Made by a program: the position numbers and the translations under genes. The notes below the pieces were generated by a model. The model worked only from the letters and a program-made list of their open reading frames with translations. It made no database searches and was not told the DNA's origin. From Cephalotus follicularis (Eukaryota; Streptophyta; Magnoliopsida; Oxalidales; Cephalotaceae): a stretch of 64,000 nucleotides of DNA. Shown one piece after another: positions 1,580-57,325 of this stretch. The stretch's first letter is position 1; every line of letters begins with the position of its first letter. The stretch covers positions 1-64,000 of the forward strand of contig BDDD01002678.1 in assembly GCA_001972305.1 (NCBI GenBank). Reading direction: 5' to 3'.

Positions 1580-4021
1580 AGTTACAAAAACAAAGAAAAA
1601 TTTACACATATTCATCCCCTAAGGGGGCACTATTTACAGGAGAAGAAGATGGCTCTTGGAAGTTCTCAGATTGAGGAGTCAAGATAGTCTCTGCTGTAGG
1701 TCCAGAGTATGGGACAATTGCACTGAGTGCTCTGCCCTCTCTTCATTCTCTTAGGCAAGGCGAGCTTTTTCCTCCTCGGTCTCAACTCCCTCAGGAAATA
1801 ACTTAAAGGCTTTCGTCGCTTGACAACAAACAATATGGTCTAAGGAAGCCTCTGGATGAAGAGCAGCCACCCAATTGCGACAAGTTTAGAAGCCCCGACG
1901 ATAGAGTGTCGCGGACTCCATTAAGACTTCCTCCTCAAAATCTGGGGAAGCCTTATAGTCCATCACGACGCTCTCCATTAATGTATGGAATTCAGTCGAA
2001 TCTTTGAACTCTATAAGGGCTTTATCCACGGCCATTTGGATCTAAGCAGCCTCCATCTCTTGGAACTTGGAGAACCTTTCATTTGTAGCCTACAGCAAAG
2101 CACGAAGTTTGGTATTGCTATCAACAGCTACTTTTCTTTCCCTTTTATCCTTTGCCAAAGCTTTCAGAGCTTGCCTCTTCTCCTCCAGCACAGACTCCTG
2201 GGCCCCGAGAACATCTTCCAGCTGGGTGTGGGCCGAATTAGCCGATTGCTTAAGCTCTGCGACCTCTTCACGAAGCTGGTTGATGATTTCGTGGTCGGCC
2301 CTAGAGTTTTCCATCATTAGATGGATATCATTCAAAGCTTTCCAGAGAAAGATCATGGTCAGAGGAAGAACAAAGAATGTATATAAAAAAAGACAAAGAA
2401 AAAAAGACAAAGAAGTCACGTACCCTAAAGTTGCTCTGAAGGCAGTGATTCCATAGTTGGTTGATGGTCCAACCCTTTCTTACATTAAGCTCGGCAGGAA
2501 GGAGGCATAACCTGCTGAGCTCAAAACGAGCCCCTGGAATGTTCAGGTCAACGCCCAAGTTGCCGAGCAGATCAAGCTCTTCTTCCACCCGGTTGGTATA
2601 CCCGGGCACACCAAGTCGGACGGGGTCCTAAGAACCCACCAAGGGGGGAACATCACTTTGCTCCTGAGAAGAGCCTTCTCCGTCTCTTTTCCTCTTTTGT
2701 TTTTTTCGGTGGACAGGGCATGTCATCCCTAACTTGCTTGCCACGAGGGGACCTTATCATGGCAGCCTCAACAACAACAGCCTCTTCCTATGCTATCCTC
2801 CCTGTCACCTTAGCCCTTTCCCTCAAGGCTCTCTGCCTTACCTCCTCGGCAGCACCCTCTTCCTATGCTATCCTCCCTGCCATCTTAGCCCTTTCCCTCA
2901 AGGCTCTCTACCTTGCCTCCTTAGCAACACCCTTTTCTTTCCCTCTGGAAGCCCTTAATACATGAGTCAAAGGTCTCCGAGAAAATATTGTTGTAGAGAA
3001 CCATGAAGATAAAGTTAGAAACATGAATAACAAAAAATGGTGAGTGAACAAAAGGAAGGAATAAGAAGCAGAGGAGGAGAGGAATGCTTAATACAGCTTT
3101 CCCCCTTATTAACAAGTGCATCTCCAGGTTCTTCTGCGCTATTTTGAACTCATTCTCTCTCTATCCCCTCTGGGATCTCCTCCTCATCATCCAAGGCATC
3201 TCTATGTCCCGCGGACATACTCAGCCCAACGCCACGAAGAGGATCCTCGAATATGATGGAATTCACCTCCTCTGGCTTCAGCACCAAGAGCTTTGCAAGG
3301 TCTGCCTTCTCTGCCTCAGTTAAAATTGTTCTCTAATTGAGGCGGTTGGTATCCAGTGAGTCACACCAGTTGTAAAGAGTAAAGCCGGGAAGATTCCTGA
3401 CAAGGAAGTACCTCTCCCTCCAGCCTTTGATAGACTTCGTAGAATCCACCAACAGTTTCTTGGTCAGACCTATGCACGACTTGAAAAAGTAACCGCGCTT
3501 GCCAGGAGATGAATTGAGGGTGTGAAACTCCTTTAATAGCACCGCCGTGGGCGTTACCCCCGTTTCCAAGCACCTCACCAAGAAACCCATGATGAAGGCC
3601 CAAGACTGCGCTTGAAGCAAAGAAGGATGAATTTGGAAGTTCCTTAAAATCGTAATAGCGAAGGACGGTATGGGGAGTCTCAGGCCATGCGACAGAGCAT
3701 CCTCAAAAACCACAAAGAGACCAGGTTTGCTTCTGTGGTCTCCTTGGGATCTCGGAGAAGGGAGACCTCCAAGCTTATAGGGAAGCAGTACTTTTTGGCT
3801 AGATTTATCACTTGTTCTCGGCGAAGCACTCTCCTGTCGAAGTGAGTCCTAAGAACTTGGGTCCCAACTTCAGTAACGGTGACATCAGGACCACCCACTG
3901 CAACAGCATCCATGGCTTCCTCTGCGCCAAGAGGACGCTCAGCAACCGTTACCTCCTCAGTCATACAGCGCACTTCTCTTGATTCAGTAACTTGTCTAGA
4001 GGTTTGCTTAACCCTAGCCAT
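1580..4021 (-). pseudogene. antisense gene of family-B gypsy element, Transposase_28-like (fossil)
   Basis: Gene on the strand opposite to gag-pol, starting at the ATG at 4021. The N-terminus reads MARVKQTSRQ, close to the histone H3 tail. It is followed by a region like the Pfam family 'putative gypsy type transposon' (Transposase_28), recognised from the HPSLL-QAQSWAFIMGFLVRC, LKEFHTLNSSPGKRGYFFKS and WRERYFLVRN segments. A Lys/Ala/Arg-rich middle follows, then a C-terminal block around 1750-1990 resembling RRGF-(x)-C(R/K)NWVAALHPE of the family-A genes. The copy is broken. Function of the protein family is unknown. A TATA-like TTTAAAT on the same strand near 4252-4258 sits where family A has TATAAAA. 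Confidence 0.75.
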
Positions 4022-4563
4022 TTGGAACCTCAAGAGAGAGAGAGAGAATATGGGAAGCAAAGAAAAACCCAAAGTGACGCCCTAATTAGTTTGCAAAGCA
4101 AACAGAAGAGAACGACTCGCCTGAGATTTTTGCAAAAGAAAATTCGAAAGGATCTTGATTGGAAGGTTGGGAGATCAAAAATCTTGGAAAATCAAAAGCT
4201 TTGAAATCTGAAAAATTGTAAAGAAACTTCTCTAAGAAGAAAAGAGTAATTTAAAGGGCTCTAGATTGATTTCAGACCATTAGATCTTTGCGGAATCAAA
4301 TGGCCTAGATCAGCCCATCAAATTAGATATGAAAGATGAAGAGACTATGCGCGACAAATGAAAAGATATAAATGGGAGTTACGCTTTCTTTGCCACGCCA
4401 TAGTTGATGCCAGAGGTGGGCCAGATAATAAGGCTCAAAAGCCAAAATAGTCCTGACTGCGTATTAAAGGCCTAATTGCGCTCCAAAAGTCAGTCCAAAG
4501 TAAGACCACATCACTAATACTCCTCCTCTGCTAAGGGCAGAAAAGGAAGACCAAGGGGGCATA

Positions 4564-5035
4564 CAATATGGGAAAAAATCAACTGTTATTGAGGCACTGA
4601 CACGTGTCCAACTGCTCCACAATCAAATCAATTAATATCACAGTGATAATGGAGGAATAACGCCTTCATTCAAATACAAGAAAACGCCCCCAAGTCCGGT
4701 CGTTTTATAGGGACCATTAATCCTCCACCGAGATGCTAGCAAGAGCAGTTACAGAGTTAAGTCTATAAATATCCCAAAGAAACACTATATACAGGTCGGT
4801 CAATTCTAGACTAAAAACTACCTTATTGTTCATTCTCTGCACTTAACTGACTTAAACATCGGAGAGTCCCCGGGAGTGAAAACTCATAGTCTTTTGATAT
4901 ATTACTTTCTCTTTGTGCAGGGATCACTGAAGAACATCAACCCAATATCATCATCGGAGCATTCGACGCGTTTTCCTCTACAAATTAAACCTCTACAAGT
5001 AGAGGACTATTGTGTTGTTGATTTCAACATCAACA
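4564..5035 (+). repeat. 3' LTR of family-B gypsy element, copy B1
   Basis: About 472 bp. Matches the family-B 5' LTR (40080-40544) and is nearly identical to 49947-50418 and 56854-57325. It ends in ATCAACA. The expected TG start is degenerate (CA). A purine-rich tract (ACCAAGGGGGCATA) lies just upstream, as expected of a polypurine tract. It contains a TATA-like TATAAATA. Confidence 0.88.
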
Positions 5036-5698
5036 AATGTCAAGGATCGTTAACAATTTGAACGTACTAGCTTTTGAAGAAAACTTGGTAGTCGTCGTGA
5101 TTGATTGTGTCAAACAAAAAACATAAAGAGAAGACTAAATAATTGGCAATGGATTTATTTCGAGAAACAATGAGATTGTAAACTTATTTGAACAAGTTGA
5201 CAAACCTTTAAAGCTATTTGGACAAATAAACAATATTGATACTTCAAATGATTGTCGTCATATGAGGGTAAATGAATTTAGTTGAGTTAAAATATTTATT
5301 ACTATAGTTTTTGTATTAATCTACCAATTTGGTTTTAAATGGAATATATGCATTGACATAAAAAGGAAATGATGAATATACGTTAAAAGATCTTGATTTT
5401 ATGAATTCAGATAGGTATAAGTATCAAATTCCTTAATTTTGATTTTGGGCAAATGTAGGATTTAGACTTCCAAAACAGTGTCAATGTGGATTTAGACTTC
5501 CATTGATGGATTAAAAAAAACAAATGGTGTTGGTGTGGACTTAATGGTGATGATATGTCAATTATAGGTGCTACCGTGTCAAAAAAAAAACTACGAAAGC
5601 TTTGTGTTTTGGATGTATGAGTCCTCGACCCTGAATTGAGTTTATGACGAAATTTGATCTTATCTCTAAAAGTTTATGAAGCAATTTGATACTTATGC
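5036..5698. other. host flank between family-B LTR and solo LTR C
   Basis: AT-rich stretch with no convincing gene. It begins AATGT and ends TATGC, the 5-bp target sites of the element on each side. Equivalent copies are 50419-51081 and 57326-57987. Confidence 0.6.
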
Positions 5699-8119
5699 TG
5701 TCACGCCCCAAACCGTGGAATAGGTCCAACGGCCCGATACGTGGCAATCTGTACATTTATCATAATCATTAATCATTAAAATTTAAAACTTAAATAAATC
5801 ATAAACATAATCCTTTATTTAATGTGTGGATATACAGACCCAGTTCGATACAATAAAAATACACTGCTATAATCAGCAGGTAAATACATACATATTTATT
5901 AATCATAAAACACACCGTCGAGGAGGAACTTATGATGTCTTTATCCTTGGCGATGCTGTGATGGGCCTCCACTACCTATTCCTGTACCTGGCACATTCAA
6001 AGGAATGGGTCAGCAACCCTGGGAGTTGTGTAGGTTACTACATATACGGGCACATACTAAAAGAAACAACAATACAAGCAGAGGAGAAAATATAATACAT
6101 GCGTGCATACCATAAAACATCATATAAAAGTCATCCTTTGTCCTCGGACTACTCTACTCAACCATACATATCAATAACATAACATAGGAGTCTAGTCCGG
6201 TCATCCTATGGTCTTGCCAGTATGTAAGGTTCACCTTTAGGCTCACCAGTCCAGAGAATTCTCCTCCAGGTTCACCTGCCGAGCAGAATTCGCCCTTTGC
6301 TCACCTGCTCTGGCGATTCACCCTTTGGATCACCAGCTCTGGCGAAATTCACCTTTAGGTTCACCATTAGGCAGATTCGCCCGAAGATCACCTGCCTCGC
6401 GGTATTCACCCATTGGGTTCACCTGCTCGGCGGAACTCTCCCTAGTTGGGCTCACCTGCCTGGGACCATCTATATATATTTCCTAGGATCATTCTTATAT
6501 TTCCTTCATTATTCTCATTTCATCCTATTCATAATCATTTATCTCTATATAGTACCACGACTCTCCCCGGGTGTACTTCATCATACACACTAGCGCTCAT
6601 CCACGTAACACAGCATGCATGGGTACATGCAAGCAACCTTTAGCGCTCAACTTGCAAGAAATGCATGGCCTGGCGCATCCAGGGTAAGTATCTTTCTCAC
6701 CACACTTTCCAGGGACATATGCAACTAGGTGCTGTTTGGGCATGCGCATGCAAAGGACGCATGTGTGCATGCACGTGGTTGCCTCTTCTTCTCGAGCGCA
6801 TGTAGAGAAAACATGCTCAGTACTGTAGTTTGCCAAAACAGAGGATGGCACTTCACCTCTGGCGTGTAGCGTCCCTGGTGTATCATTTCAATATCTCTAA
6901 CGTATCACCATGGTACCTCTGGCGCACGACAGACCAGGGGATGTATGCATGGCGCATGCAAGGTAATACTTGGTGCTCTGTGCGTACTGAAAACATGCCT
7001 ATCGTATGCATAGTACATGACGTGCTCCTTGGAGTCTCGGCACTTGCCAGGGATGAGCCCAATTGACATGGCAACTGTGGTGCACTGGTTTGGAGCATCC
7101 ATGGGCGCATGGGAAAGGAGACCGGGGTGCTTGCATGGTAGGGAAGAGCCATGACGGCTCCTCTGGCATGGCACCTCCGGCATGGCACAACGGGTATGGT
7201 TCCCGGGCATCTCCATCTCGGCGTATGTCTTCCCAGGCACGACTCCTCTGGCTTTGTCACCTCAGGCACATATCTCCCCCGGCTTCGTCACCTCGGGCTC
7301 CTCTGGTAAGGCTGCCCAACACATCGCCACCTTTGGCATTCGACCATGGCATCACTGCTTGGTAGGGGAGCTCGGGCATGGCTGCTTGGGCAAGACGGTG
7401 GAGCTCGGGCATGGCAGGGGAGCTCAGCACCGTACCTCGGCACATTATCCAGGCGCATACCTGGCTCCCGACACCACTGGCGTTAACAATGGAGCTCGGC
7501 TCACGCCTGGTATGGATGCGCAGACAATATTCAACATGCCTAGATGCACGCATAGTGTACGCCGGCGACGAGGGGTGCTCGGTGCTTGCCGGGGAGGAGC
7601 TCGGGCGTCTCGCCATGCTTGGGCGCATGGCCAGGGAAGCTCAACTCCACACGGCACCTCTGCATATGGCGTCACTGTGCAAAACGCATAGTTTGTGCGT
7701 GAGGGACGAAGCGCCAGGGAATGAAACACATGCATCTTGTGCGTATAGGGACGCATAGAATGGGGAGAGGAATGACCACGTGCTATGCGTATGGCTCGGC
7801 TAATGGCGCATACCCGGGAACTCATATATGTGTAATTCTACTTTACTAAACAATTGCACACCATGCACACAAACAATAAAACACATACAACACCAAACAA
7901 ATAACAAACACGCATAGCAGGCACACACACAAGCTGGTAGGCACTCGGACATGAAGTAACCTAACTGGAGGGTGGTTGAAAACGGAGATCGCCTTATCTG
8001 GACTTCCTTCCTGGTTGAGGACTGCTACACACCATTAGCTTTCCCAAATTTCTCCTCCTTTGCACAATCCTTGTTCCCAGGGAAATGGTTTATATACCAC
8101 TGGAGTGCAGGGGACATGA
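5699..8119 (+). mobile_element. LTR of family C, partial, first copy (fossil)
   Basis: Starts TGTCACGCCCCAAACC after TATGC, a start typical of plant LTRs. Complete equivalents at 51082-53958 and 57988-60864 are 2877 bp, end CTTACA and are flanked by TATGC on both sides. This copy stops at about 8119, where family-A pol sequence begins. It holds a tandem array (6230-6470) and a GC-rich stretch (about 6600-7830) full of GCGCATG and GAGCTCGGGCATGG words. Many long open frames on both strands in the GC-rich part follow from base composition and I do not regard them as genes. Confidence 0.85.
6230..6470 (+). repeat. degenerate tandem array, unit about 30 bp (GGTTCACCTGCTCGGCGAAT)
   Basis: About eight or nine imperfect units built on GGTTCACCTG...GGCGAATTCGCCCTTT. 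The array recurs in LTR C at about 51613-51845 and 58519-58751, so it is a component of that LTR. Confidence 0.75.
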
Positions 8120-10956: not shown

Positions 10957-13210
10957 CTACTTCTGGAGAAGAGTAGGAGTTGTCGTCTCGCCCACAGGGG
11001 CAGCCGAGGTCTCTTGAGCCAACCTCTGACGGACCCTGTCCTCTACCTCGTCAATCCCCTCAGGATAGAAGTCAAATGCATCAGCAGATTCGCAATACAC
11101 CACTTCGTCCAAAGGAAGATCAGGCGTCAGAGAAGCAACCCAGTTCCGACAGGCATAGAACCCTCGGCGAAAGTACTCGAACGACTCCTCGAAGACTGCT
11201 TCATCGAACTCCTCCGAGTTCTTGAAGTCAGCCACGGCCTGGATTCTTTCCCTCCTCAGCTTTTCCAGTTCCATCCTCTGCTGTTCTATTTCCCTCCTCT
11301 GCTGCCGATCAAGCTTTGTTACAAGGTCGTCAACCTTGTCCTCGGCCCGTTTCAGCTTGGCCTCCAGCACCTTCATCTCGGCTGTCCTCTCCTTCAAGTC
11401 CTCAGCTGCCTGCTTCTTCTCCTCGGCCAGGGACTCCTGAGCCTTTAGAACCTCATTCAGCTGGGCTTGAGCCGAGCGAGCGGTTTTTTCAAGGGTGGCC
11501 ATGCTCGACCTCAGTTCTCGGTCCCTGGCCACAACCGTACGGAGGTTGTCCACAAGCAGCTGGGTATCGTTCAGAGACTGTCAGAGAGATAGAAAGTGTT
11601 AGATATTATAAAGAACTAAAGTACAAGAAAGAGTGAGGTGACCAAGGATGAGATCACTTACCCTCAGCTGCCTCTTCAAACAAACAGTGGACAAGTCTTC
11701 ATTAGTCCATCTCTGCCTTGCCTCCAACTCCCGGGGCAAGAAGACCAGACGGCTGAGTCTTTGAGGGACTCTAGGATCGTTCAAGCTCAAGTTCTCAGCG
11801 TCCATCTCGTCAAACCCATCGAGCAGTTGGTCCACCGACAGAGATGGGGGAAGGATTATAGGGTCCTGGGAACTAGCTCCGAGGGCAGCCACGTCCTCAA
11901 CTTCCCGGACCTTCTCGGCGCCCTCCACAGCTTTCCCCTTTCTACTCCTCTTGGACAGAGGAGCATGCTCAGTTGAGGGGGTCTTGTCGGCCGGCCTCTT
12001 ACCGGTCTCCTTCCTCTTCTCGGTCACACCAACCGGAACCCTAGCAGAGGGAGGAGGAGGGGGGGTCTTGGTCGGCGCCCTTGTCTTCTCGGCCGTGGGA
12101 GTATTGGCCTTGGGCTGAGTCCCAATAGAAGTAGAGGCCTTCTTCTTGTCAGTGGACCTGATGATTGCAGAGAGATCTCGGCGAGGACCCATTGCTGAAA
12201 TAAGACAAGAAATTCAGAGTCAGAGATCAGAGATTAGAAAAAGTAAGAGTTGGTAAGAACAGAATTAATGGAAGAGACAGAGAAGACGAAGATGGTATAC
12301 AAGTTTGCTTAGACACTAGGGGCGGAGGACTGTCCTGCTCTTCCTCGCCCTCTGATTCTTCCTCCTCGGATCCGTCCGAGGAGGACTCGTGTTCCAGGAG
12401 CTTACTAAGTCCTGCTTGGACCAGACGATCCTCGGTCACGGTGGAGTTCACGTCTTCTGGCTCAAGAGCCAGAAGGTTGCTAAGTCCCGTTTTTTTAGCC
12501 GAGGACAGACGGGCTTTTTTGTTCAAAGATGAGACGTCCAAGGACGTACACCAAGGGGAGGGAATGAATCCCTCAAAGTCTTTTATCAAGAAATATTTCC
12601 TTCTCCAGTTTTTTATTGATTGGGTGGGGTTGAGAAGAAGTTTTTTAACCCCAGAACAGGATTTGAAGAAATATCCGTTTGTTTTGGGGGTAGCCGAGAT
12701 GACATGAAACTCCTTGAAGAGATTCACAGTAGCTGTCACCTCGGACTCTATGCACCTAACTAGGAAACCTATCATGAAACCCCAAGACTGAGGTTGAAGA
12801 AGAGAAGGATGAAGACTAAAGTTCAGGAGGACCGAGATGGCAAAAGAGGGAACAGGGACCCTCAAACCATGGGCAAGAGCAGCTTCGAAGACCACAAAAA
12901 GGCCTTCTCGGCTCTCAGTAACTACCCGAGGATCCTTGGAAATACTGAAGGTCAACCCACGAGGGATATTATACTTTTTAGTAAGCCTTTTAACCTCGGA
13001 TTGGCTAAGCTTACTCAAACCAAAGGCACAATCCTCGGGCAGAGGATTGACCTCGGCAGTGGGTGCATCAGGGACACCCACAGCAGCCCCTACACTACCT
13101 TCCACATCATTTGACCTCTCAGCGAGGGGAAGCACCATAGCCAAAGGTGCAATGGACAGGGGGGAAGGAGAAGAAGAAGAAGATCCAGAAGATAGCTCTT
13201 GATTAGCCAT
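10957..13210 (-). pseudogene. antisense gene of A2, Transposase_28-like
   Basis: Opposite-strand gene, start ATG at 13210, seen as three open blocks (about 13210-12250, 12192-11600, 11553-10957) with short non-coding gaps that look like introns. The first block carries the Transposase_28-like region (RVPVPSFAISVLLNFSLHPSLL, then FKEFHVIS, YFFKS, NWRRKYFLIKDFEGF). The second is Lys/Pro-rich. The third is a charged coiled coil followed by a conserved end (FRRGFYACRNWVASL, LPLDEVVYCESADAFDFYPEG). The N-terminus (MANQELSS) lacks the H3-like peptide seen in A1 and B. Function unknown. It is treated as part of a fossil element. Confidence 0.75.
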
Positions 13211-19490: not shown

Positions 19491-19927
19491 CACCATTAGT
19501 TGTTAATGGAAACATCTAACAAACCATTTCAATGATCTCAAGTTTTCGCCAAAAAGATTACAATGAATATCGCAACTGAACCAAGGGACATCCTCTTGAA
19601 ATGAAGCACTCATTACAAAAATTGTACAATAAATATAGTTCTGCGGGAGTCAATGCCTATCCAACATTACTGATACAAATTCACCTGAGACCTCAAAATT
19701 TCACAAAATCGTCAAGTCACAATAGAATTAGAACTGGCCCATGCCCATGATATGGGAACTCCCTGAGAAGACATAAACCAAAGTGATATGGGGAAAAATT
19801 AAGTTAAATCAAAAGCGACACGTGTCCTCTTCCAAACACGGCCAGGTGTCCAAGCAAGTCAACAGATGGCAAATTGAGGTCAGAGGAAGCTAACTAGCAA
19901 CAAATACAGTAATACAAGGAGAATTCC

Positions 19928-20047
19928 TCCTCGGCATAAGTGCCGAGGACCCATCCAGTTGTACCAGTACAAATATCATCCTCCTCGGCGTCGGGTCCGA
20001 GGACACCTTCTGAAGCACAACCGCCGAGGACCTCCTCGGCTATAAAA
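19928..20047 (+). promoter_or_regulatory. three CCTCGG hairpins followed directly by TATAAAAA in the LTR
   Basis: Stems: TCCTCGGC/GCCGAGGA (19928-19949), TCCTCGG/CCGAGGA (19982-20003), GCCGAGG/CCTCGGC (20023-20040). The TATA-like TATAAAAA begins at 20041, touching the third hairpin. All three hairpins are kept in the 3' LTR (about 30806-30927). They could be regulatory protein sites or structured DNA/RNA. Function is inferred only. Confidence 0.55.
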
Positions 20048-20408
20048 ACAGAAGATCATCCATTTCTAATACAAGTCCATGGACGTAGTGGACCTTAAAG
20101 CAAAGGGTCTGTTTGCTTCATTGACAGCAGAGAAGTTCTCTTCCTCGGCCAATCTGCAGAGAAGGACCTCCCCCTCATTTACGGAATGAGGCCATGGAAT
20201 TAGCCTAACTACAAGGGATCCATATCTTCTAAAGATAAATACTAAGATAAGGATAACTACCAGTAAGGAAAGGAGATAATCCAGGAAAAGATAAAGGAAA
20301 GAAGAGATAATTCAGGTGGAGATAAGGGAAATCCTGAGATCCTCGGAATTTCCTTAGGGGATAGGTATCACCTCCGTTTTTCACGCTCAATCAATTACCA
20401 AACACCAC

Positions 20409-20415
20409 TATAAAT
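20409..20415 (+). promoter_or_regulatory. probable LTR core promoter (TATAAAT)
   Basis: CACTATAAATACAAG about 260 bp before the LTR end. Family B has the similar GTCTATAAATACCCC at about the same distance (40273-40280), which favours this box as the start of the genomic transcript over the one at 20041. Confidence 0.6.
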
Positions 20416-20670
20416 ACAAGTTCAATAGACTGAACAAAGGTCAGCCATTTTTACTTTGCAAAGAACATTGTTTCATCTGCACTTTGTCTAACTTGAGCGC
20501 CGGAGTGTCCCCGGGAGAACAACCTCCTGGACTTTCCACCATTTCTGTTACTTTGTGCAGGTGTCCGAGATCAAAGTCTTCCTCCAGGCATTCATTGCAA
20601 GCGTTTCTCTTAACAAATAAAAGTCCTCCACGTAGGATACTGTTGAGAGAAGGATTTATGTATCAACAGT

Positions 20671-27651: not shown

Positions 27652-30027
27652 CTAGGCTAAGGCAGGAGGAGGATCAGAAGAAGCTGCATCTTGAGGAGGA
27701 GGAGGGACAAAAGGTTCAGCCTGAGGAGGTTGAGGAGTTGCGAGGTCTGAAGCGGGATCATCAAGGGCGAACTGAACTCCTAGTTCCTCTTCCCCAACTC
27801 CTTGGTCGGCATTCATTTCCAAGGCCTCCCCGGCTTTCAACTCCTCAGCTTCGTATCCACCTGGATAAAAATCGAAGGCCTTGGCAGCCGAGCAGTAGGC
27901 AACCTCGTCCAGGGGAATCTCTGAATGCAGAGCCTTGACCCAATTTTTGTAAGTGTAGAATCCCCGACGGTAGTACTCGGTAGATTCCTTGAAGACCTCT
28001 TCGTCGAAGGCCTCAGAAGCTCTGAAGTCCTCCATGGAGGCTTCCATTAGGCTATGGAACTCGTCAGAGGACCTGAACTCAGCAAGGGCGTCCTCCACAG
28101 CCTTGGCTTTTTCCTCCTCGTGCCTCTTCATAGCCTCCTCATACCTCCTCAATGTCTCCTCATGCTACTTCTGCAAAGATTGGAACAAGTAGCGAGCCTT
28201 AGCGTGCTATTTTTGGGATTGGTCCTTTTCCAGGACAGCTCTGTTCCTCTCCTCAACGGTAGCCTCTTGAGCCTTAAGGACTTCCTCAAGTTGGGCCTTG
28301 GCAAGACGAGAAGTTTCCTTCTCCATCCATCACCTCCAACCTCAGCTTGTCGCACCTCTCCAAGAGGATTGAGTAGTTCTCAACCAAGAGGTGGTGGTTA
28401 TTCAAAGCCTGCAAAGAAGAATGAAGTTAGAACAGAAAATGCAGAAGTACAAACTACACAGTCAGAGGATCTCCCTTTACCTCAAACTGGCTTCGCAGTG
28501 AATTATGGACGAGGTCCTTGCTGGACCAGTCCTCCCTTTCCTTCAGCTCGTCCAGGAAAAGACAGAGAGAGCTGAGAGCAAATGGCACCCCCTGAGTATC
28601 CAGGCTAGAGGAGCCCTTCCCAACTCCCTCTAGCTCGTTGATCATCCTCTCCACGTCCCGAGAAGGAGGCAAGATGATAGGGACGCCTAAAGTTCGTCCG
28701 AGGATGGAGTCCATCTCGGGCTCGGTGATGAGTCTCCCCCTTTTACTTGGAGGACAAGGAGGACTGCCAGAGGTACGTCCACTGGCAGGACGCTTAGAGC
28801 CTTTATCCTTGGCTGCGACTGCAGCCTTCTTCAATTGCTTGGCCCCGGCAGCAGCAGCCTTGGCCCTCTGCCTGGCCCCCTCGGCGGTGGCCCTCTCCTT
28901 CTGTTTAGCTGCCTCCTCGGCAGCCCTTTGTCTAGCCGCTTCCTCGGCGGCTTTTTGCTTGTCCGCAGCAGCACAGGAGGACTTAGAGCTCTTGGTGGCA
29001 CTGCACAAGGCATCGAACCCTTTCCGAGAAGACATTGCTGCATAGACAGAGGTCAAAAGTGTTAGTGACTTAAAATTGAACTACAATGTTAAAAATTTGA
29101 AGACAAGAAAGACGGAGGAGACGAAAACTTTATACAGTTTTCCCCCATCTCTTGGGGCATGGATTGGACTGGGGACCCCTCGTCCCCTGAGGATTCCTTG
29201 ACCTCGGCCGAGTGTGACCCTTGGCTTGGAGCAACACTTAGCCCAGCCCGGAGCAGACGCTCCTCAACCACGACAGAGTTCACCTCCTCGGGCTCCAAGT
29301 GGATGAGCTTATCGAAGTCCAAGTTCTCGGCCATTGTCAATATGGGCCTCCTGTTGAGACGTGTAGTCTCCAGGGAGTCACACCATACAGGAGGGGTGAA
29401 CCCTTCAAAATTTTTGATGAGGAAGTATCTCTTCCTCCAATTTTTGATGGACTGGGTTGGTTTGGTGAGAAGCTTTGTTATGCCAGGACGTGACTTAAAA
29501 AAGTAGCCACGTTTCCCTGGCGAGGACGAGATGACATGGAAATGTTTAAACAATCTCACTGTGGCAGTCACCTCGGACTCCTGACACCTAACGAGAAAAC
29601 CTGTTATGAAGCTCCATGACTGGGGTTGAAGAAGAGAAGGATGGACGGTAAACGCCTCCAAAATGGACAAGGCGAAGGAAGGAACGGGGATCCTCAGACC
29701 ATGAGAAAGAGCCCCCTCGAAGACAATAAAGAGGCCCTTTTTACTCTCTGTGACCTTCCGAGGATCCTTGGGAAGATAGAATTTCAACCCAGGAGGGAAG
29801 TTGAACTTGTTGGAGAGCTCAACCACCTCCTGGCGAGAAAGAGCACTGGTCCCAAAGCCATCAGGGGCAGAGGAATCAGTCTCGGTGACGAGAACATTTG
29901 GTTCACCCACTGCAGCCCCCAGGCTACCCTCAGATGAAAGGGGACTCTCAGCAGAGGGAATCACCATAGCCAGGAGTTCAACCTCTAAGGGAGGAGAAAC
30001 CCTAGCAGTACGTTTGGTTCTGGCCAT
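27652..30027 (-). pseudogene. antisense gene of A1, Transposase_28-like, with histone H3-like N-terminus
   Basis: Opposite-strand gene of the retroelement, ATG at 30027 (an in-frame upstream ATG exists at 30066, but MARTKR matches the start used in family B). Three open blocks, about 30027-29120, 29050-28460 and 28150-27652, separated by gaps that look like introns. Block 1 carries MARTKRTARVS and the Transposase_28-like region (LRIPVPSFALSILEAFTVHP, KHFHVISSSPGKRGYFFKS, NWRKRYFLIKNFEGF). Block 2 is an Ala/Lys/Arg/Glu-rich helix (EEAARQRAAEEAAKQKERA). Block 3 has the conserved end YRRGFYTYKNWVKAL, PLDEVAYC, KAFDFYPGG. It has its own TATA-like box at 30253-30259. Function unknown. A nuclear, chromatin-linked role would fit the N-terminus but is inference. 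Confidence 0.75.
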
Positions 30028-30252
30028 TTGGGTCAAAATAAACAAAGGAGATGAAGAAAAAAGCAAGAAAGAAAAACAGGAATCAGTTTAGAACAGTAAA
30101 GGGACTGTTAACTTACTCAGAAACTTGTACGAAGATGATTAGAAGACGAAGATTCGAGGTAGAAGGCACAAGAGAAACTAGAAATCTCAAATTCTCAGGT
30201 GTTGGCAAAAAGCAAGAAGGCGTAAAAGAGTGGCTTAGTGATTTAGGGTTCC

Positions 30253-30259
30253 TTTTATA
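30253..30259 (-). promoter_or_regulatory. TATA box candidate for A1 antisense gene
   Basis: Minus strand GGCCTATAAAAGG, about 226 bp before the ATG at 30027. Conserved with A2 (13414-13420). Confidence 0.55.
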
Positions 30260-30661: not shown

Positions 30662-31546
30662 TGATATGGGGAAAAATTAAGTTAAATCAAAAGCGACACG
30701 CGTCCTCTTCCAAACACGGCCGGGTGTCCAAGCAAGTCAACAGATGGCAAATTGAGGTCAGAGGAAGCTAACTAGCAACAAATACAGTAATACAAGGAGA
30801 ATTCCTCCTCGGCATAAGTGCCGAGGACCCATCCAATGGTTCCAGTACAAATATCATCCTCCTCGGCGTCGGGTCCGAGGACACCTTCTGAAGCACAACC
30901 GCCGAGGACCTCCTCGGCTATAAAAACAGAAGATCATCCATTTCTAATACAAGTCCATGGACGTAGTGGACCTTAAAGCAAAGGGTATGTTTGCTTCATT
31001 GACATCAGAGAAGTTCTCTTCCTCGGCCGATATGCAGAGAAGGACCTCCCCCTAATTTACGGAATGAGACCATGGAATTAGCCTAACTACAAGGGATCCA
31101 TATCTTCTAAAGATAAATACTAAGATAAGGATAACTACCAATAAGGAAAGGAGATAATCTAAGAAAAGATAAAGGAAAGAAGAGATAATTCAGGTGGAGA
31201 TAAGAGAAATCCCGAGATCCTCGGAATTTCCTTAGGGGATAGGCATCACCTCCGTTTTTCACGCTCAATCAGTTACCAAACACCACTATAAATACAAGTT
31301 CAACAGACTGAACAAAGGTCAGCCATTTTTACTTTGCAAAGAACATTGTTTCATCTGCACTTTGTCTAACTTGAGCGTCGGAGTGTCCCCGGGAGAACAA
31401 CCTCCTGGACTTTCCACCATTTTTATTACTTTGTGCAGGTGTCCGAGATCAAAGTCTTCCTTCAGGCATTCATTGCAAGCGTTTCTCTTAACAAATAAAA
31501 GTCCTCCACGTAGGATACTGTTGAGAGAATGATTTCTATATCAACA
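30662..31546 (+). repeat. 3' LTR of A1
   Basis: 885 bp, begins TGATATGGGG after the purine-rich GAAGAAGGACCAGGAGGGCATA, ends TATCAACA, followed by CAAAG. About 97% identical to the 5' LTR by eye. Confidence 0.95.
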
Positions 31547-34806: not shown

Positions 34807-35646
34807 TCAAACTTGTTCAAGCCTATTTTGATTCCAATATAAAAGTGAGAATATTACCAAAATCCCTAAAATACTATGTTTTTTCCATGGTTGGAATACT
34901 GCAACAGCACTGGTTTCAGTAGCGCTGCTGTCAACATGAGGAGCCGAATAAGTAGTATATTGCCATTGGAGGAGTGGTGTCACAGGCACACTAGAATAGG
35001 ATGTCATTTGCACAGGAGGATAAGGAGTGGTGATCGTCAGCTGAGATGGAGCTGTTCTAGTGCTGCTTGACGATGATTCCTGATCAGCGGAGGCCCTAGC
35101 CCTAGCCCTAGCCCTGATAGAAGAAGGAAGTTCCTTCTCCCTCTTGACACGGCAGATGACAAGATCATGACGATGATAGCTGTTGAGGCAGGGGCTTTTG
35201 ACGTTGTCGTCGAGAAGGATACCGTCAAGGCGGAACTCATGCATGACAAATCTTCCATTGTGATTGGGATTGTTGTTGTTGGGTATGAAGGAGAAGACCC
35301 TCTTGGAGCCGATGTGGTTCCTGTTAGAGAGAGAGGTATCACCACCAGGATAATAGTATATGGGATTATCCTTCTGGGATTTCCATGTCCCACATGCACC
35401 GGCGGTTCTATCGACGCGTGAGCCGTTTTTGGTCTTCTTCTTCAACTGGGTGTAGAAATAGAACTCCTTCTTCCCTGTGGCATCGAAAACACTCCTCCAT
35501 AGTTGATTCTCTTCGTACACATCAAATTCCATTATGGGGTCATTGATTATCTCCTTGCTGTAAACTTTCCTGAACAAGAAGTAGCCGATTAACTCAATCT
35601 CTCTTGGGCTAAACTTAAACCCTTTCTTGCTCGCCGCCATATTCAT
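34807..35646 (-). CDS. NAC-domain transcription factor
   Basis: Intact 279-residue frame, the only whole host gene seen. The NAC DNA-binding domain occupies roughly residues 9-172: subdomain A GFKFSPREIELIGYFLFRKV (9-28), B FDVYEENQLWRS (41-52), the EFYFYTQLKKK strand (61-71), C-like TAGACGTWKSQ (81-91), D SKRVFSFIP and GRFVMHEFRL (114-140), E YHRHDLVICRVKR near 158-172. A basic ARARARARA run follows, then a Ser/Thr/Pro/Tyr-rich region typical of NAC activation tails. The last 23 residues contain a hydrophobic run SILGILVIFSLLYW, which may be a short membrane anchor as in NTL-type NACs. Start: the ATG at 35646 has a weak context; the ATG two codons in (35640, A at -3 and G at +4) is stronger. 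Unusually, no intron interrupts the NAC domain; an intron near the 3' end, read through here, remains possible. TATA-like TATAAGTATAAG on the minus strand near 35725-35740. Confidence 0.88.
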   Translation of the reverse strand: MNMAASKKGFKFSPREIELIGYFLFRKVYSKEIINDPIMEFDVYEENQLWRSVFDATGKKEFYFYTQLKKKTKNGSRVDRTAGACGTWKSQKDNPIYYYPGGDTSLSNRNHIGSKRVFSFIPNNNNPNHNGRFVMHEFRLDGILLDDNVKSPCLNSYHRHDLVICRVKREKELPSSIRARARARASADQESSSSSTRTAPSQLTITTPYPPVQMTSYSSVPVTPLLQWQYTTYSAPHVDSSATETSAVAVFQPWKKHSILGILVIFSLLYWNQNRLEQV

Positions 35647-47579: not shown

Positions 47580-49406
47580 CCGAATTAGCCGAGAACATCT
47601 TCCAGCTGGGTGTAGGCCGAATTAGCCGATTGCTTAAGCTCTGCGACCTCTTCACGAAGCTGGTTGATGATTTCGTGGTCGGCCCTAGAGTTTTCCATCA
47701 TTAGATGGATATCATTCAAAGCTTGCCAGAGAAAGATCATGGTCAGAGGAAGAACAAAGAATGTATATAAAAAAAGACAAAGAAAAAAAGACAAAGAAGT
47801 CACGTACCCTAAAGCTGCTCTGAAGGCAGTGATTCCATAGTTGGTTGATGGTCCAACCCTTTCTTACATTAAGCTCGGCAGGAAGGAGGCATAACCTGCT
47901 GAGCTCAAAAGGAGCCCCTGGAATGTTCAGGTCAACGCCCAAGTTGCCGAGCAGATCAAGCTCTTATTCCACCCGGTTGGTATACCCGGACGTACCAAGT
48001 CGGACGGGGTCCTGAGAACCCACCAAGGGGGGAACATCACTTTGCTCCTGAGAATAGCCTTATCCATCTCTTCTCCTCTTTTGTTTTTTTTGGGTGGACA
48101 GGGCATGTCATCCCTAACTCGCTTGCCACGAGGGGACCTTATCATGGCAGCCTCAACAACAACAGCCTCTTCCTATGCTATCTTCCCTGTCACCTTAGCC
48201 CTTTCCCTCAAGGCTCTCTGCCTTACCTCCTCGACAGCACCCTCTTCCTATGCTATCCTCCCTGCCATCTTAGCCCTTTCCCTCAAGGCTCTCTACCTTG
48301 CCTCCTTGGCAGCACCCTTTTCTTTCCCTCTGGAAGCCCTCAATACATGAGTCAAAGGTCGCCGAGAAAATATTTCTGTAGAGAACCATGAAGATAAAGT
48401 TAGAAACATGAATAACAAAAAATGGTGAGTGAACAAAAGGAAGGAATAAGAAGCGGAGGAGGAGAGGAATGCTTAATACAGCTTTCCCCCTTATTAACAA
48501 GTGCATCTCCAGGTTCTTCTTCACTATTTTGAACTCATTCTCTCTCTATCCCCTCTGGGATCTCCTCCTCATCATCCAAGGCATCTCTATGTCCCGCGGA
48601 CATACTCAGCCCAACGCCACGAAGAGGATCAGAGAATATGATGGAATTCACCTCCTCTGGCTTCAGCACCAAGAGCTTTTCAAGATCTGCCTTCTCTGCC
48701 TCAGTTAAAATTGTTCTCTAATTGAGGTGGTTGGTATCCAGTGAGTCACACCAGTTGTAAAGAGTGAAGCCGGGAAGATTCCTGACAAGGAAGTACCTCT
48801 CCCTCCAACCTTTGATAGGCTTCGTAGAATTCACCAACAGTTTCTTGGTCAGACCCATGCGCGACTTGAAAAAGTAACCGCGCTTGCCAGGAGATGAATT
48901 GAGGGTGTGAAACTCCTTTAATAGCACCATCGTGGGCGTTACACCCGTTTCCAAGCACCTCACCAAGAAACCCATGATGAAGGCCCAAGACTACGCTTGA
49001 AGCAAAGAATGATGAATTTGGAAGTTCCTTAAAATCGTAATAGCGAAGGACGGTATGGGGAGTCTCAGGCCATGCGACAGAGCATCCTCAAAAACCACAA
49101 AGAGACCAGGTTTGCTTTTGTGGTCTCCTTGGGATCTCGGGGAAGGGAGAACTCCAAGCTTATAGGGAAGCAGTACTTTTTGGCTAGATTTATCACTTGT
49201 TCTCGGCGAAGCACTCTCCTGTCGAAGTGAGTCCTAAAAACTTGGGTCCCAACTTCAGTAGCGGTGACATCAGGACCACCCACTGCAACAGCATCCATGG
49301 CTTCCTCTGCGCCAAGAGGATGCTCAACAACCGTTACCTCCTCAGTCATACAGCGCACTTCTCTTGATTCAGTAACTTGTCTAGAGGTTTGCTTAACCCT
49401 AGCCAT
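47580..49406 (-). pseudogene. antisense gene of B2, Transposase_28-like (fossil)
   Basis: Duplicate of the copy-B1 antisense gene. ATG at 49406, N-terminus MARVKQTSRQVTES, Transposase_28-like region around 48720-49130, charged middle around 48100-48350. The C-terminal end present in B1 is absent here. It is broken. Confidence 0.72.
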
Positions 49407-49946
49407 TTGGAACCTCGAGAGAGAGAGAGAATATGGGAAGCAAAGAAAAACCCAAAGTGACGCCCTAATTAGTTTGCAAAGCAAACAGAAGAGAACGACT
49501 CGCCTGAGATTTTTGCAAAAGAAAATTCGAAAGGATCTTGATTGGAAGGTTGGGAGATCAAAAATCTTGGAAAATCAAAAGCTTTGAAATCTGAAAAATT
49601 GTAAAGAAACTTCTCTAAGAAGAAAAGAGTAATTTAAAGGGCTCTAGATTGATTTCAGACCATTAGATCTTTGCGGAATCAAATGGCCTAGATCAGCCCA
49701 TCAAATTAGATATGAAAGATGAAGAGACTATGCGCGACAAATGAAAAGATATAAATGGGAGTTACGCTTTCTTTGCCACGCCATAGTTGATGCCAGAGGT
49801 GGGCCAGATAATAAGGCTCAAAAGCCAAAATAGTCCTGACTGCGTATTAAAGGCCTAATTGCGCTCCAAAAGTCAGTCCAAAGTAAGACCACATCACTAA
49901 TACTCCTCCTCTGCTAAGGGCAGAAAAGGAAGACCAAGGGGGCATA

Positions 49947-50418
49947 CAATATGGGAAAAAATCAACTGTTATTGAGGCACTGACACGTGTCCAACTGCTC
50001 CACAATCAAATCAATTAATATCACAGTGATAATGGAGGAATAACGCCTTCATTCAAATACAAGAAAACGCCCCCAAGTCCGGTCGTTTTATAGGGACCAT
50101 TAATCCTCCACCGAGATGCTAGCAAGAGCAGTTACAGAGTTAAGTCTATAAATATCCCAAAGAAACACTATATACAGGTCGGTCAATTCTAGACTAAAAA
50201 CTACCTTATTGTTCATTCTCTGCACTTAACTGACTTAAACATCGGAGAGTCCCCGGGAGTGAAAACTCATAGTCTTTTGATATATTACTTTCTCTTTGTG
50301 CAGGGATCACTGAAGAACATCAACCCAATATCATCATCGGAGCATTCGACGCGTTTTCCTCTACAAATTAAACCTCTACAAGTAGAGGACTATTGTGTTG
50401 TTGATTTCAACATCAACA
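49947..50418 (+). repeat. 3' LTR of B2
   Basis: 472 bp, nearly identical to 4564-5035 and 56854-57325, preceded by the ACCAAGGGGGCATA polypurine tract. Confidence 0.9.
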
Positions 50419-51081
50419 AATGTCAAGGATCGTTAACAATTTGAACGTACTAGCTTTTGAAGAAAACTTGGTAGTCGTCGTGATTGATTGTGTCAAACAA
50501 AAAACATAAAGAGAAGACTAAATAATTGGCAATGGATTTATTTCGAGAAACAATGAGATTGTAAACTTATTTGAACAAGTTGACAAACCTTTAAAGCTAT
50601 TTGGACAAATAAACAATATTGATACTTCAAATGATTGTCGTCATATGAGGGTAAATGAATTTAGTTGAGTTAAAATATTTATTACTATAGTTTTTGTATT
50701 AATCTACCAATTTGGTTTTAAATGGAATATATGCATTGACATAAAAAGGAAATGATGAATATACGTTAAAAGATCTTGATTTTATGAATTCAGATAGGTA
50801 TAAGTATCAAATTCCTTAATTTTGATTTTGGGCAAATGTAGGATTTAGACTTCCAAAACAGTGTCAATGTGGATTTAGACTTCCATTGATGGATTAAAAA
50901 AAACAAATGGTGTTGGTGTGGACTTAATGGTGATGATATGTCAATTATAGGTGCTACCGTGTCAAAAAAAAAACTACGAAAGCTTTGTGTTTTGGATGTA
51001 TGAGTCCTCGACCCTGAATTGAGTTTATGACGAAATTTGATCTTATCTCTAAAAGTTTATGAAGCAATTTGATACTTATGC
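50419..51081. other. host flank between B2 and solo LTR C
   Basis: AT-rich, no gene recognised. Same as 5036-5698. Confidence 0.5.
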
Positions 51082-53958
51082 TGTCACGCCCCAAACCGTG
51101 GAATAGGCCCCACGGCCCGATACGTGGCAATCCGTGCATTTATCATAATCATTAATCATTAAGATTTAAAACTTAAATAAATCATAAACATAATCCTTTA
51201 TTTAATGTGTGGATATACAGACCCAGTTCGATACAATATAAATACACTGCTATAATCAGCAGGTAAATACATACATATTTATTGATCATAAAACACACCG
51301 TCGAGGAGGAACTTATGATGTCTTTATCCTTGGCGCTGCTGTGATGGGCCTCCACTACCTATTCCTGTACCTGGCTCATTCAAAGGAATGGGTCAGCAAC
51401 CCTGGGGGTTGTGTAGGTTACCACATATACAGGCACATACCAAAAGAAACAACAATACAAGCAGAGGAGAAAATATAATACATGCGTGCATACCATAAAA
51501 CATCATATAAAAGTCATCCTTTGTCCTCGGACTACTCTACTCAACCATACATATCAATAACATAACATAGGAGTCTAGTCCGGTCATCCTATGGTCTGGC
51601 CAGTATGTAAGGTTCACCTTTAGGCTCACCAGCCCGGAGAATTCTCCTCCAGGTTCACCTGCCGAGCAGAATTCGCCCTTTGCTCACCTGCTCTGGCGAT
51701 TCACCCTTTGGATCACCAGCTCTGGTGAAATTCACCTTTAGGTTCACCATTAGGCGGATTCGCCCGAAGATCACCTGCCTCGCGGTATTCACCCATTGGG
51801 TTCACCTGCTCGGCGGAACTCTCCCCAGTTGGGCTCACCTGCCTGGGACCATCTATATATATTTCCTAGGATCATTCTTATATTTCCTTCATTATTCTCA
51901 TTTCATCCTATTCATAATCATTTATCTCTATATAGTACCACGACTCTCCCCGGGTGTACTTCATCATACACACTAGCGCTCAACCACGTAACAAAGCATG
52001 CATGGGTACATGCAAGCAACCTTTAGCGCTCAACTTGCAAGAAATGCATGGCCTGGCGCATCCAGGGTAAGTATCTTTCTCACCACACTTTCCAGGGACA
52101 TATGCAACTAGGTGCTGTTTGGGCATGCGCATGCAAAGGACGCATGTGTGCATGCACGTGGTTGCCTCTTCTTCTCGAGCGCATGTAGAGAAAACATGCT
52201 CAGTACTGTAGTTTGCCAAAACAGAGGATGGCACTTCACCTCTGGCGTGTAGCGTCCCTGGTGTATCATTTCAATATCTCTAACGTATCACCATGGTACC
52301 TCTGGCGCACGACAGACCAGGGGATGTATGCATGGCGCATGCAAGGTAATACTTGGTGCTCTGTGCGTACTGAAAACATGCCTATCGTATGCATAGTACA
52401 TGACGTGCTCCTTGGAGTCTCGGCACTTGCCAGGGATGAGCCCAATTGACATGGCAACTGTGGTGCACTGGTTTGGAGCATCCATGGGCGCATGGGAAAG
52501 GAGACCGGGGTGCTTGCATGGTAGGGAAGAGCCATGACGGCTCCTCTGGCATGGCACCTCCGGCATGGCACAACGGGTATGGTTCCCGGGCATCTCCATC
52601 TCGGCGTATGTCTTCCCAGGCACGACTCCTCTGGCTTTGTCACCTCAGGCACATATCTCCCCCGGCTTCGTCACCTCGGGCTCCTCTGGTAAGGCTGCCC
52701 AACACATCGCCACCTTTGGCATTCGACCATGGCATCACTGCTTGGTAGGGGAGCTCGGGCATGGCTGCTTGGGCAAGACGGTGGAGCTCGGGCATGGCAG
52801 GGGAGCTCAGCACCGTACCTCGGCACATTATCCAGGCGCATACCTGGCTCCCGACACCACTGGCGTTAACAATGGAGCTCGGCTCACTCCTGGTATGGAT
52901 GCGGAGATAATATTCAACATGCCTAGACGCACGCATAGTGTACGCCGGCGACGAGGGGTGCTCGGTGCTTGCCGGGGAGGAGCTCGGGCCTCTCGCCATG
53001 CTTGGGCGCATGGCCAGGGAAGCTCAACTCCACACGGCACCTCTGCATATGGCGTCACTGTGAAAAACGCACAGTTTGTGCGTGAGGGACGAAGCGCCAG
53101 GGAATAAAACACATGCATCTTGTGCGTATAGGGACGCATAGAATGGGGAGAGGAATGACCACGTGCTATGCGTATGGCTCGGCTAATGGCGCATACCCGT
53201 GAACACATATATGTGTAATTCTACTTTACTAAACAATTGCACACCATGCACACAAACAATAAAACACATACAACACCAAACAAATAACAAGCACGCATAG
53301 CAGGCACACACACAAGCTGGTAGGCACTCGGACATGAAGTAACCTAACTGGAGGGTGGTTGAAAACGGAGATCGCCTTATCTGGACTTCCTTCCTGGTTG
53401 AGGACTGCTACACACCATTAGCTTTCCCAAATTTCTCCTCCTTTGCACAATCCTTGTTCCCAGGGAAATGGTTTATATACCACTGGAGTGCAGGGGACAT
53501 GAGGGCTCACTTGAACATCACCCTTTTGTCCCCTTCTCACACTTTTGCCAGAATCTGGCCCCCATTTCCCACTTTCTCACCTCTCTCGATTTCTCTAGAT
53601 CCATGGAGTGCAATAAAATGGCTAAAAGTGTGTCCCAAGGCTATCATCAGCCTTTTATATACATGTGAGGAAGAGTCTAGAATTTCTTAAACAAACTCCA
53701 ACAATGCAGGGCCTGCCAAGGCTTGGGCCAAACTCCCATTTTGGGCCAAATTACACTTTCTACATCAAAGCCCAACAAGTCAATTATCATATTAAATTCG
53801 GCCCAAGGAGAATAACATAATCTCATTAGCCCAAAGTCACAAATTTTATTCTATTAAGGCCCAAATAAATACTTTATAAAATTCAGGTCCAGCCCAAAAG
53901 GTGGAAAAATAATTACAAAACCCAATAATAATACTTTATAATATTTAGGGCTCTTACA
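51082..53958 (+). mobile_element. solo LTR of family C, complete copy (fossil)
   Basis: 2877 bp, TGTCACGCCCC...GGCTCTTACA, with perfect TATGC target duplications (51077-51081 and 53959-53963). No internal region, so it is a solo LTR. Superfamily not assigned. Confidence 0.9.
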
Positions 53959-55123: not shown

Positions 55124-56313
55124 TCTGCCTTACCTCCTCGGCAGCACCCTCTTCCTATGCTATCCTCCCTGCCATCTTAGCCCTTTCCCTCAAGGCTCTC
55201 TACCTTGCCTCCTTAGCAACACCCTTTTCTTTCCCTCTGGAAGCCCTTAATACATGAGTCAAAGGTCTCCGAGAAAATATTGTTGTAGAGAACCATGAAG
55301 ATAAAGTTAGAAACATGAATAACAAAAAATGGTGAGTGAACAAAAGGAAGGAATAAGAAGCAGAGGAGGAGAGGAATGCTTAATACAGCTTTCCCCCTTA
55401 TTAACAAGTGCATCTCCAGGTTCTTCTGCGCTATTTTGAACTCATTCTCTCTCTATCCCCTCTGGGATCTCCTCCTCATCATCCAAGGCATCTCTATGTC
55501 CCGCGGACATACTCAGCCCAACGCCACGAAGAGGATCAAAGAATATGATGGAATTCACCTCCTCTGGCTTCAGCACCAAGAGCTTTACAAGATCTGCCTT
55601 CTCTGCCTCAGTTAAAATTGTTCTCTAATTGAGGAGGTTGGTATCCAGTGAGTCACACCAGTTGTAAAGAGTAAAGCCGGGAAGATTCCTGACAAGGAAG
55701 TACCTCTCCCTCCAACCTTTGATAGACTTCGTAGAATACACCAACAGTTTCTTGGTCAGACCAATGCACGACTTGAAAAAGTAACCGCGCTTGCCAGGAG
55801 ATGAATTGAGGGTGTGAAACTCCTTTAATAGCACCAACGTGGGCGTTACACCCGTTTCCAAGCACCTCACCAAGAAACCCATGATGAAGGCCCAAGACTA
55901 CGCTTGAAGCAAAGAAAGATGAATTTGGAAGTTCCTTAAAATCGTAATAGCGAAGGACGGTATGGGGAGTCTCAGGCCATGCGACAGAGCATCCTCAAAA
56001 ACCACAAAGAGACCAGGTTTGCTTTTGTGGTCTCCTTGGGATCTCGGGGAAGGGAGAACTCCAAGCTTATAGGGAAGCAGTACTTTTTGGCTAGATTTAT
56101 CACTTGTTCTCGGCGAAGCACTCTCCTGTCGAAGTGAGTCCTAAAAACTTGGGTCCCAACTTCAGTAGCGGTGACATCAGGACCACCCACTGCAACAGCA
56201 TCCATGGCTTCCTCTGCGCCAAGAGGATGCTCAACAACCGTTACCTCCTCAGTCATACAGCGCACTTCTCTTGATTCAGTAACTTGTCTAGAGGTTTGCT
56301 TAACCCTAGCCAT
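55124..56313 (-). pseudogene. antisense gene of family B, tandem copy (fossil)
   Basis: N-terminal two thirds of the gene at 47580-49406, ATG at 56313 with MARVKQTSRQ. Broken, and cut at 55124 by the tandem junction. Confidence 0.72.
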
Positions 56314-56853
56314 TTGGAACCTCGAGAGAGAGAGAGAATATGGGAAGCAAAGAAAAACCCAAAGTGACGCCCTAATTAGTTTGCAAAGCAAACAGAAGAG
56401 AACGACTCGCCTGAGATTTTTGCAAAAGAAAATTCGAAAGGATCTTGATTGGAAGGTTGGGAGATCAAAAATCTTGGAAAATCAAAAGCTTTGAAATCTG
56501 AAAAATTGTAAAGAAACTTCTCTAAGAAGAAAAGAGTAATTTAAAGGGCTCTAGATTGATTTCAGACCATTAGATCTTTGCGGAATCAAATGGCCTAGAT
56601 CAGCCCATCAAATTAGATATGAAAGATGAAGAGACTATGCGCGACAAATGAAAAGATATAAATGGGAGTTACGCTTTCTTTGCCACGCCATAGTTGATGC
56701 CAGAGGTGGGCCAGATAATAAGGCTCAAAAGCCAAAATAGTCCTGACTGCGTATTAAAGGCCTAATTGCGCTCCAAAAGTCAGTCCAAAGTAAGACCACA
56801 TCACTAATACTCCTCCTCTGCTAAGGGCAGAAAAGGAAGACCAAGGGGGCATA

Positions 56854-57325
56854 CAATATGGGAAAAAATCAACTGTTATTGAGGCACTGACACGTGTCCA
56901 ACTGCTCCACAATCAAATCAATTAATATCACAGTGATAATGGAGGAATAACGCCTTCATTCAAATACAAGAAAACGCCCCCAAGTCCGGTCGTTTTATAG
57001 GGACCATTAATCCTCCACCGAGATGCTAGCAAGAGCAGTTACAGAGTTAAGTCTATAAATATCCCAAAGAAACACTATATACAGGTCGGTCAATTCTAGA
57101 CTAAAAACTACCTTATTGTTCATTCTCTGCACTTAACTGACTTAAACATCGGAGAGTCCCCGGGAGTGAAAACTCATAGTCTTTTGATATATTACTTTCT
57201 CTTTGTGCAGGGATCACTGAAGAACATCAACCCAATATCATCATCGGAGCATTCGACGCGTTTTCCTCTACAAATTAAACCTCTACAAGTAGAGGACTAT
57301 TGTGTTGTTGATTTCAACATCAACA
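56854..57325 (+). repeat. 3' LTR of family B, tandem copy
   Basis: 472 bp, same as 49947-50418. Confidence 0.9.

Follow-up and report, generated by a model that had tools for sequence, protein, structure and literature searches.

Retand-lineage LTR retrotransposons carry antisense ORFs with a TRP28 domain, which lie between pol and the 3' LTR and were missing from only two of the 63 Retand clusters that had 10 copies or more; the encoded proteins are predicted to bind DNA and their function is unknown (Vicient 2025, PMC11963269). As Transposase_28, the same domain was reported in 23% of Retand elements (Neumann 2019, PMC6317226). In maize, the antisense protein of Grande is reported to be nuclear and to be transcribed from a promoter located upstream of it (2020 review, PMC7264820). 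The gene described here, which belongs to an element of Cephalotus follicularis that we call element A1, is by its domain and position the TRP28 ORF usual in the Retand lineage. It agrees with the published ORFs, among them Retand ORF4 (PMC11963269, PMC7264820), in its antisense position between pol and the 3' LTR, in a PF04195 score above the cut-off and in the presence of further antisense ORFs downstream.

The antisense gene of element A1

The window, that is, the whole stretch of DNA that was analysed (64,000 nucleotides of contig BDDD01002678.1), contains element A1 with its 5' LTR at 19784..20668 and its 3' LTR at 30662..31546, both on the plus strand and with limits set by BLAST. The gag, reverse transcriptase (RT) and integrase domains are on the plus strand, and TRP28 is located on the minus strand ahead of the 3' LTR at 30662. 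Exon 1 of the antisense gene (29089..30027, minus strand) is an open frame of 312 amino acids with TRP28 (PF04195, Transposase_28) at residues 101-166 (E 1.5e-10, 41.6 bits); the homologue in a second element of the window, A2, scores 35.8 bits (E 9.7e-9), the curated cut-off being 26.2. The preliminary description of this locus had proposed an antisense retroelement protein, and the TRP28 domain together with the minus-strand ORF opposite gag-pol bears this out. A two-sequence structure model of the A1 protein was of no use for the fold (mean pLDDT 30.6), and a profile search of the PDB gave no match below E 0.6.

Splice-like sites at the joins suggest that the antisense gene has three exons or more and is spliced. 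A second antisense ORF, rich in Ala and Lys (28454..29035, minus strand) and homologous to 11599-12192 in A2 (E 4e-10), is preceded by an acceptor-like TATGCAG and has GAG|GTAAAG at its end. The donor-like T|GTAT at 29135 and the acceptor-like TATGCAG ending at 29038 agree in phase and would join exon 1 to this second ORF (29038-29135). By eye, A2 also presents T|GTAT at the aligned place. The third antisense ORF is a charged remnant (27652..28131, minus strand) with an acceptor-like AG ending at 28409 (TTTGCAG); the frame that follows from the predicted joins stops after 40 codons, and the later coding-like frame is a different one, with two stops. Given this frame change and the in-frame stops between the 28409 acceptor and the ORF, the third exon is broken in this copy. 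In addition, gag-pol is broken into six ORFs of at least 120 codons and pol is broken, RT (PF00078) being found in two pieces. Since gag-pol is split, RT is in two pieces and the third antisense exon is interrupted, we regard this copy of A1 as decayed. The LTRs of A1 show 26 differences over 885 positions; on this basis, the 33-base start would be expected to have gained about 0.5 substitution after the element inserted.

Relatives of the A1 antisense protein were searched for in viral contigs (with the A1 protein and with an A1/A2 profile), in prokaryote genome contigs (with the A1/A2 profile) and in plasmids (with the A1 protein minus its first 11 residues), and none was found in any of these sets. 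The integrase profile found nothing in viral contigs either, and the RT fragment matched one viral contig (L048), where the five ORFs tried gave no match to the antisense gene (best E 0.42). Outside the element, a 279-aa ORF at 34807-35646 (minus strand) has a NAM (NAC) domain (E 2.6e-21) and is possibly a host NAC gene or a fragment of one.

A histone H3-like start in two families

The A1 protein starts with MARTKRTARVS (29995..30027, minus strand) and, without Met, 8 of its 10 residues are those of histone H3 1-10 (ARTKQTARKS), namely A1, R2, T3, K4, T6, A7, R8 and S10 in the numbering of the histone. The likeness to the H3 tail after loss of Met, with R2, T3, K4, T6 and R8 kept, had been described before, and we read the same start from the minus strand at 30027..29089; the earlier coordinates (29998-30027) cover codons 1-10, but Ser of MARTKRTARVS, at 29995-29997, falls outside them. 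A more distant family, B, starts with MARVKQTSRQV at 3989..4021, 49374..49406 and 56281..56313, always on the minus strand, in agreement with the previous reading (MARVKQTSRQ at 4021, 49406 and 56313, with R2, K4, Q5, T6 and R8). Its identity with H3 1-10 is 6/10 (A1, R2, K4, Q5, T6 and R8). K9 of H3 is missing in both families, being V in A1 and Q in B, and T3 and A7 are also changed in B.

The three B starts should not be counted separately. The ORF of the first copy breaks near codon 95, the second is a near-identical duplicate, and the third lies inside a 6.9-kb block that matches the one around the second at 99.26% identity; since the B blocks are 98.6-99.3% identical and all three copies share the frame break near codon 95 and the later stops, they represent one observation. 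The two 6.9-kb blocks that hold B antisense exon 1 (48217-55122 and 55124-62028) form a direct tandem, and most of the block is present for a third time at 2832-8119. In this repeated block, long ORFs overlap on both strands at 7182-7691, 52565-53107 and 59471-59980 (MAQRVWFPG...).

The homologue of A2, also a TRP28 ORF (12227..13210, minus strand), starts at 13210 with MANQELSSGS, and the absence of an H3-like start that had been noted for it is thus correct. A2 is closer than B to A1, both in pol and in the antisense ORF: its DNA is 84% identical to A1 along 2.3 kb that cover pol and the sequence downstream of it, and its exon 1 protein is 53% identical, whereas the gag-pol blocks of B are 67-79% identical to A1 in DNA and its first 94 codons 38% identical in protein. 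In tblastn, the alignment of A1 with B starts at residue 1, and that of A1 with A2 only at A1 residue 19. The start of A2 reads MANQELSSGSSSSS, with a TCT-rich run. Over codons 2-9, the ungapped DNA identity was 13/24 for A1-B (shuffle p 0.003), 14/24 for B-A2 (p 0.0008) and 10/24 for A1-A2 (p 0.05). Because B-A2 at least equals A1-B, the DNA likeness by itself cannot single out the A1-B pair; furthermore, as the DNA of A2 resembles that of B at this place, A2 may carry the A1/B start with its residues lost.

Among the 2,267 ATG starts on both strands of the window, A1 is the best with 8/10, the three B starts reach 6 and all others at most 4. In 60 mononucleotide shuffles, with one strand scored, the best ATG start was at most 6, a value reached only once. 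When all 10-mers in six frames were considered (127,940 positions), 21 had at least 5 H3 matches, and an unrelated one, RRKNQRARKS at 12366 on the minus strand, also reaches 6/10, so that the score of B alone is unremarkable. Given Met-Ala, the probability of at least 8/10 is 4e-8 to 7e-8 by composition, calculated with a generic amino-acid composition. An 8/10 match is therefore unlikely for any single protein; it should be noted, however, that the likeness was picked post hoc.

A pattern for MA[R/S]TKxTA[R/S], which covers some of the routes to 8/10, was run once over the prokaryote contig collection and found 47 stretches. Seven of them (L008, L014, L018, L022, L031, L046 and L047) look like genes, or first exons, of histone H3; they were told apart by their translations, and 11 of the 47 loci were viewed at length. 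L018, L022 and L047, as well as L008, L014, L031 and L046, sit in records labelled as bacterial MAGs, and these H3-like genes are apparently eukaryotic contamination. Five of the 40 non-histone stretches score at least 8/10 (L002, L006, L007, L017 and L033), with ORFs of 12 to 90 codons, and none of the 40 combines such a score with an ORF of at least 100 codons. Such a start can therefore arise outside any histone context, although it would rarely head a long ORF. We reject capture of an H3 gene as the principal explanation, since the likeness ends at residue 10-11 and the remainder of exon 1 is a TRP28 protein.

Codon pattern and use of the start

The A1 and B sequences differ at 11 of the 24 bases of codons 2-9 (9 transitions and 2 transversions), and five of the eight residues are kept (A, R, K, T and R), each of them with a synonymous difference. 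When the same changes were placed randomly in 50,000 trials, five or more residues were kept in 0.7-0.8% of them. The pN/pS of A1-B is 0.25 in the start segment, against 0.84 and 0.65 for the two segments that follow. With p 0.0075 (uncorrected), the start ranks lowest of 83 eight-codon A1-B segments; the next independent one, PNVLVTET/PDVTVTEV, has p 0.016 and likewise five residues with synonymous changes only. This pattern, which comes from eight codons of one family pair in an alignment anchored at the ATG, suggests purifying selection on the peptide; the A1/B start has probably been inherited and held under constraint, and it is probably translated. No constraint was observed in the comparisons with A2: for A1-A2, one of eight residues is kept (Ala), with pN/pS 1.89 and rank 285 of 303, and for A2-B the pN/pS is 1.54. 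One relative would then be able to do without the start or to replace it. The earlier proposal of selection on a peptide shared by two families stands in part: the peptide is common to both, apparently by descent, and the codon pattern points to purifying selection, but the three copies of B are one case and A2, the nearest relative, keeps only Ala.

By eye, the A1 coding start also contains a telobox-like motif, AAACCCTAG at 29997-30005, that specifies A-R-V; the start of B holds TTAACCCTAG, which gives A-R-V at codons 2-4. A constraint at the DNA level could contribute to the residues common to A1 and B.

As regards expression, A1 has a TATA-like box, CCTATAAAAGG, at 30253..30259 (minus strand), 232 bases upstream of the ATG. 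Similar boxes are located 210-234 bases upstream in the three families: TATAAAA in A1 and, at -210, in A2, and a weaker TTTAAA at -232/-234 in B. No other ATG lies between the TATA-like box of A1 and the one at 30027, and the start context is CAAATGGC in both A1 and B. ATG is absent from the last 200 leader bases in A1, A2 and the three B copies, which is weak evidence alone because 7-14% of shuffled leaders also lack it. The leaders of A1, A2 and B resemble one another weakly, with z of 2.2 to 3.0 against shuffles.

Readings of the start and known systems

The reading that we favour, tentatively and at somewhat less than an even chance, is that the A1/B start is an inherited and selected M-A-R-x-K-x-T-x-R that would serve as a basic arm for the TRP28 accessory protein encoded antisense in a Retand-type Ty3/gypsy element. 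It builds on direct observations, namely the sequence, its homology, the TRP28 domain and the codon pattern. The antisense position, what is reported of the Grande protein, the TATA-like boxes at comparable distances, the ATG-free leaders and the start context of A1 and B also speak for it. The protein would be expressed from a putative promoter of its own within the element, opposite gag-pol, with translation presumably from the ATG at 30027. The nine-residue start would have been passed down from the common ancestor of A1 and B, and selection on the peptide would have preserved it. Its likeliest role would be to form a basic arm, short and flexible, on a predicted nuclear, probably DNA-binding, regulatory protein, and this arm may contact nucleic acid or chromatin or serve nuclear import. 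The H3 likeness would be partly coincidental within a basic start rich in Ala, Thr and Arg. The copies seen are damaged, the third exon of A1 being broken and B frameshifted, and this weighs against a basic arm, as do the lack of constraint in A2, the DNA likeness of B to A2, the second low-p segment PNVLVTET/PDVTVTEV and the candidate 5'-UTR intron of A1. We favour a constrained basic arm over a true H3 mimic, and coincidence is the next alternative. By coincidence we mean that an ATGGC context, which gives Met-Ala, and a basic stretch came by chance to resemble H3, the likeness being without function and the similarity between A1 and B due to descent only. This is unlikely in our estimate, even if several observations agree with it: the likeness is a post hoc pick among an indefinite number of sequences and motifs, MARTKRTAR-type ATG starts occur without histone context in 40 of the 47 prokaryote stretches, the window itself holds an unrelated 6/10 stretch, A2 has no H3-like start, and a phmmer search of the PDB set with the first 23 residues of A1 matched no chain, not even H3, at E<=10. 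A per-protein probability below 1e-7 by composition, the lack of non-histone stretches (0/40) with at least 8/10 and an ORF of at least 100 codons, and the codon pattern of A1-B, which suggests selection, argue against coincidence.

A functional mimic of the H3 tail is improbable in our judgement. Met would be removed and the free A-R-T-K end would occupy an H3K4 reader, eraser or writer, such as a PHD finger, a WDR5-like protein or an LSD1-type demethylase, TRP28 would bind element DNA, and the element would thereby recruit or block a chromatin factor in a SNAG-like manner. We also consider it improbable that, in a lineage of plant retrotransposons, the antisense and probably DNA-binding TRP28 protein bears a copy of the H3K4 tail, selected and perhaps formerly nearer to ARTKQTAR, with which it recruits or blocks LSD1-type demethylases or readers of H3K4 on the DNA of the element; if true, this would be a SNAG-like anti-silencing or self-restraint device inside a transposable element. 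Identities of 8/10 and 6/10 at the extreme N-terminus, which exceed all other starts of the window, agree with mimicry, as does the fact that the five residues common to A1 and B are all H3 residues and that positions 1-8 are each H3-like in at least one family. Mimicry of the H3 N-terminus is reportedly, by its title, the subject of a work by Chen et al. in 2021. There is also a precedent in the SNAG domain, which occupies the cleft of LSD1 as an imitation of the H3 tail (PMC5896174, PMC12612597). Against mimicry, A2 has no H3-like start, K9 is gone in A1 and B, T3 and A7 are altered in B, and the likeness was chosen post hoc. Furthermore, H3K4 readers require a free alpha-amino group on Ala. 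The preliminary description assumed that removal of Met would expose it; in plants, however, proteins that start with Ala are canonical substrates of NatA, including GR1 with its A-R-K start (PMC8831508), and because Ala-Arg starts of this kind can be acetylated, which would block the amino group, removal of Met need not expose a free Ala. The least probable of the readings is that the peptide is absent from the A1 protein, through a candidate 5'-UTR intron that could remove the ATG. It would run from GTAAGT (30111..30116, minus strand, at -89) to the AG of codon 3, the first past the pyrimidine tract, or a later one, and translation would start at the conserved Met21 (LAMV). This GTAAGT aligns with the A2 hexamer at -69, the A1 sequence is free of AG from -77 to +8, the AG at +8 falling inside codon 3, and the similarity between the A1 and A2 proteins begins at residue 19, just ahead of Met21. 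However, such an intron leaves the A1-B pattern in codons 2-9 unexplained, splicing at the acceptor-like AG of B, located at -7 after a pyrimidine tract, would preserve the ATG, and the position and context of the A1 ATG described above speak for its use.

TRP28 antisense proteins are encoded by 97% of the published recently active Retand clusters (PMC11963269). If constrained, the H3-like start would offer a definite lead towards a role in chromatin for them and, if it is merely a basic arm, the A1/B start would still mark a conserved functional start. The peptides ARTKRTAR, ARTKRTA, ARVKQTSR, MARTKRT and MARVKQT did not occur in the main text of the papers searched, and an H3-like start of Retand-type antisense proteins is undescribed in the titles and abstract openings among the matches listed.

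Compared with the N-terminus of histone H3, the likeness is 8/10 for A1 and 6/10 for B, but the similarity is over by residue 10-11, K9 is missing and no captured H3 gene is apparent past the start. The SNAG sequence itself is unlike ARTK. As in the SNAG factors GFI1 and SNAI1, a very short H3-tail-like peptide heads a DNA-binding protein, predicted as such in the case of A1; those factors are human and their binding has been demonstrated, whereas for A1 it is putative, and we claim no sequence homology (PMC5896174, PMC12612597). The closest relatives remain the TRP28 ORFs of Retand elements, for which the text consulted mentions neither an H3-like start nor a multi-exon structure nor N-terminal conservation (PMC11963269). 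This kind of antisense ORF is thus already known, and what is new in A1 and B is the codon pattern of codons 2-9.
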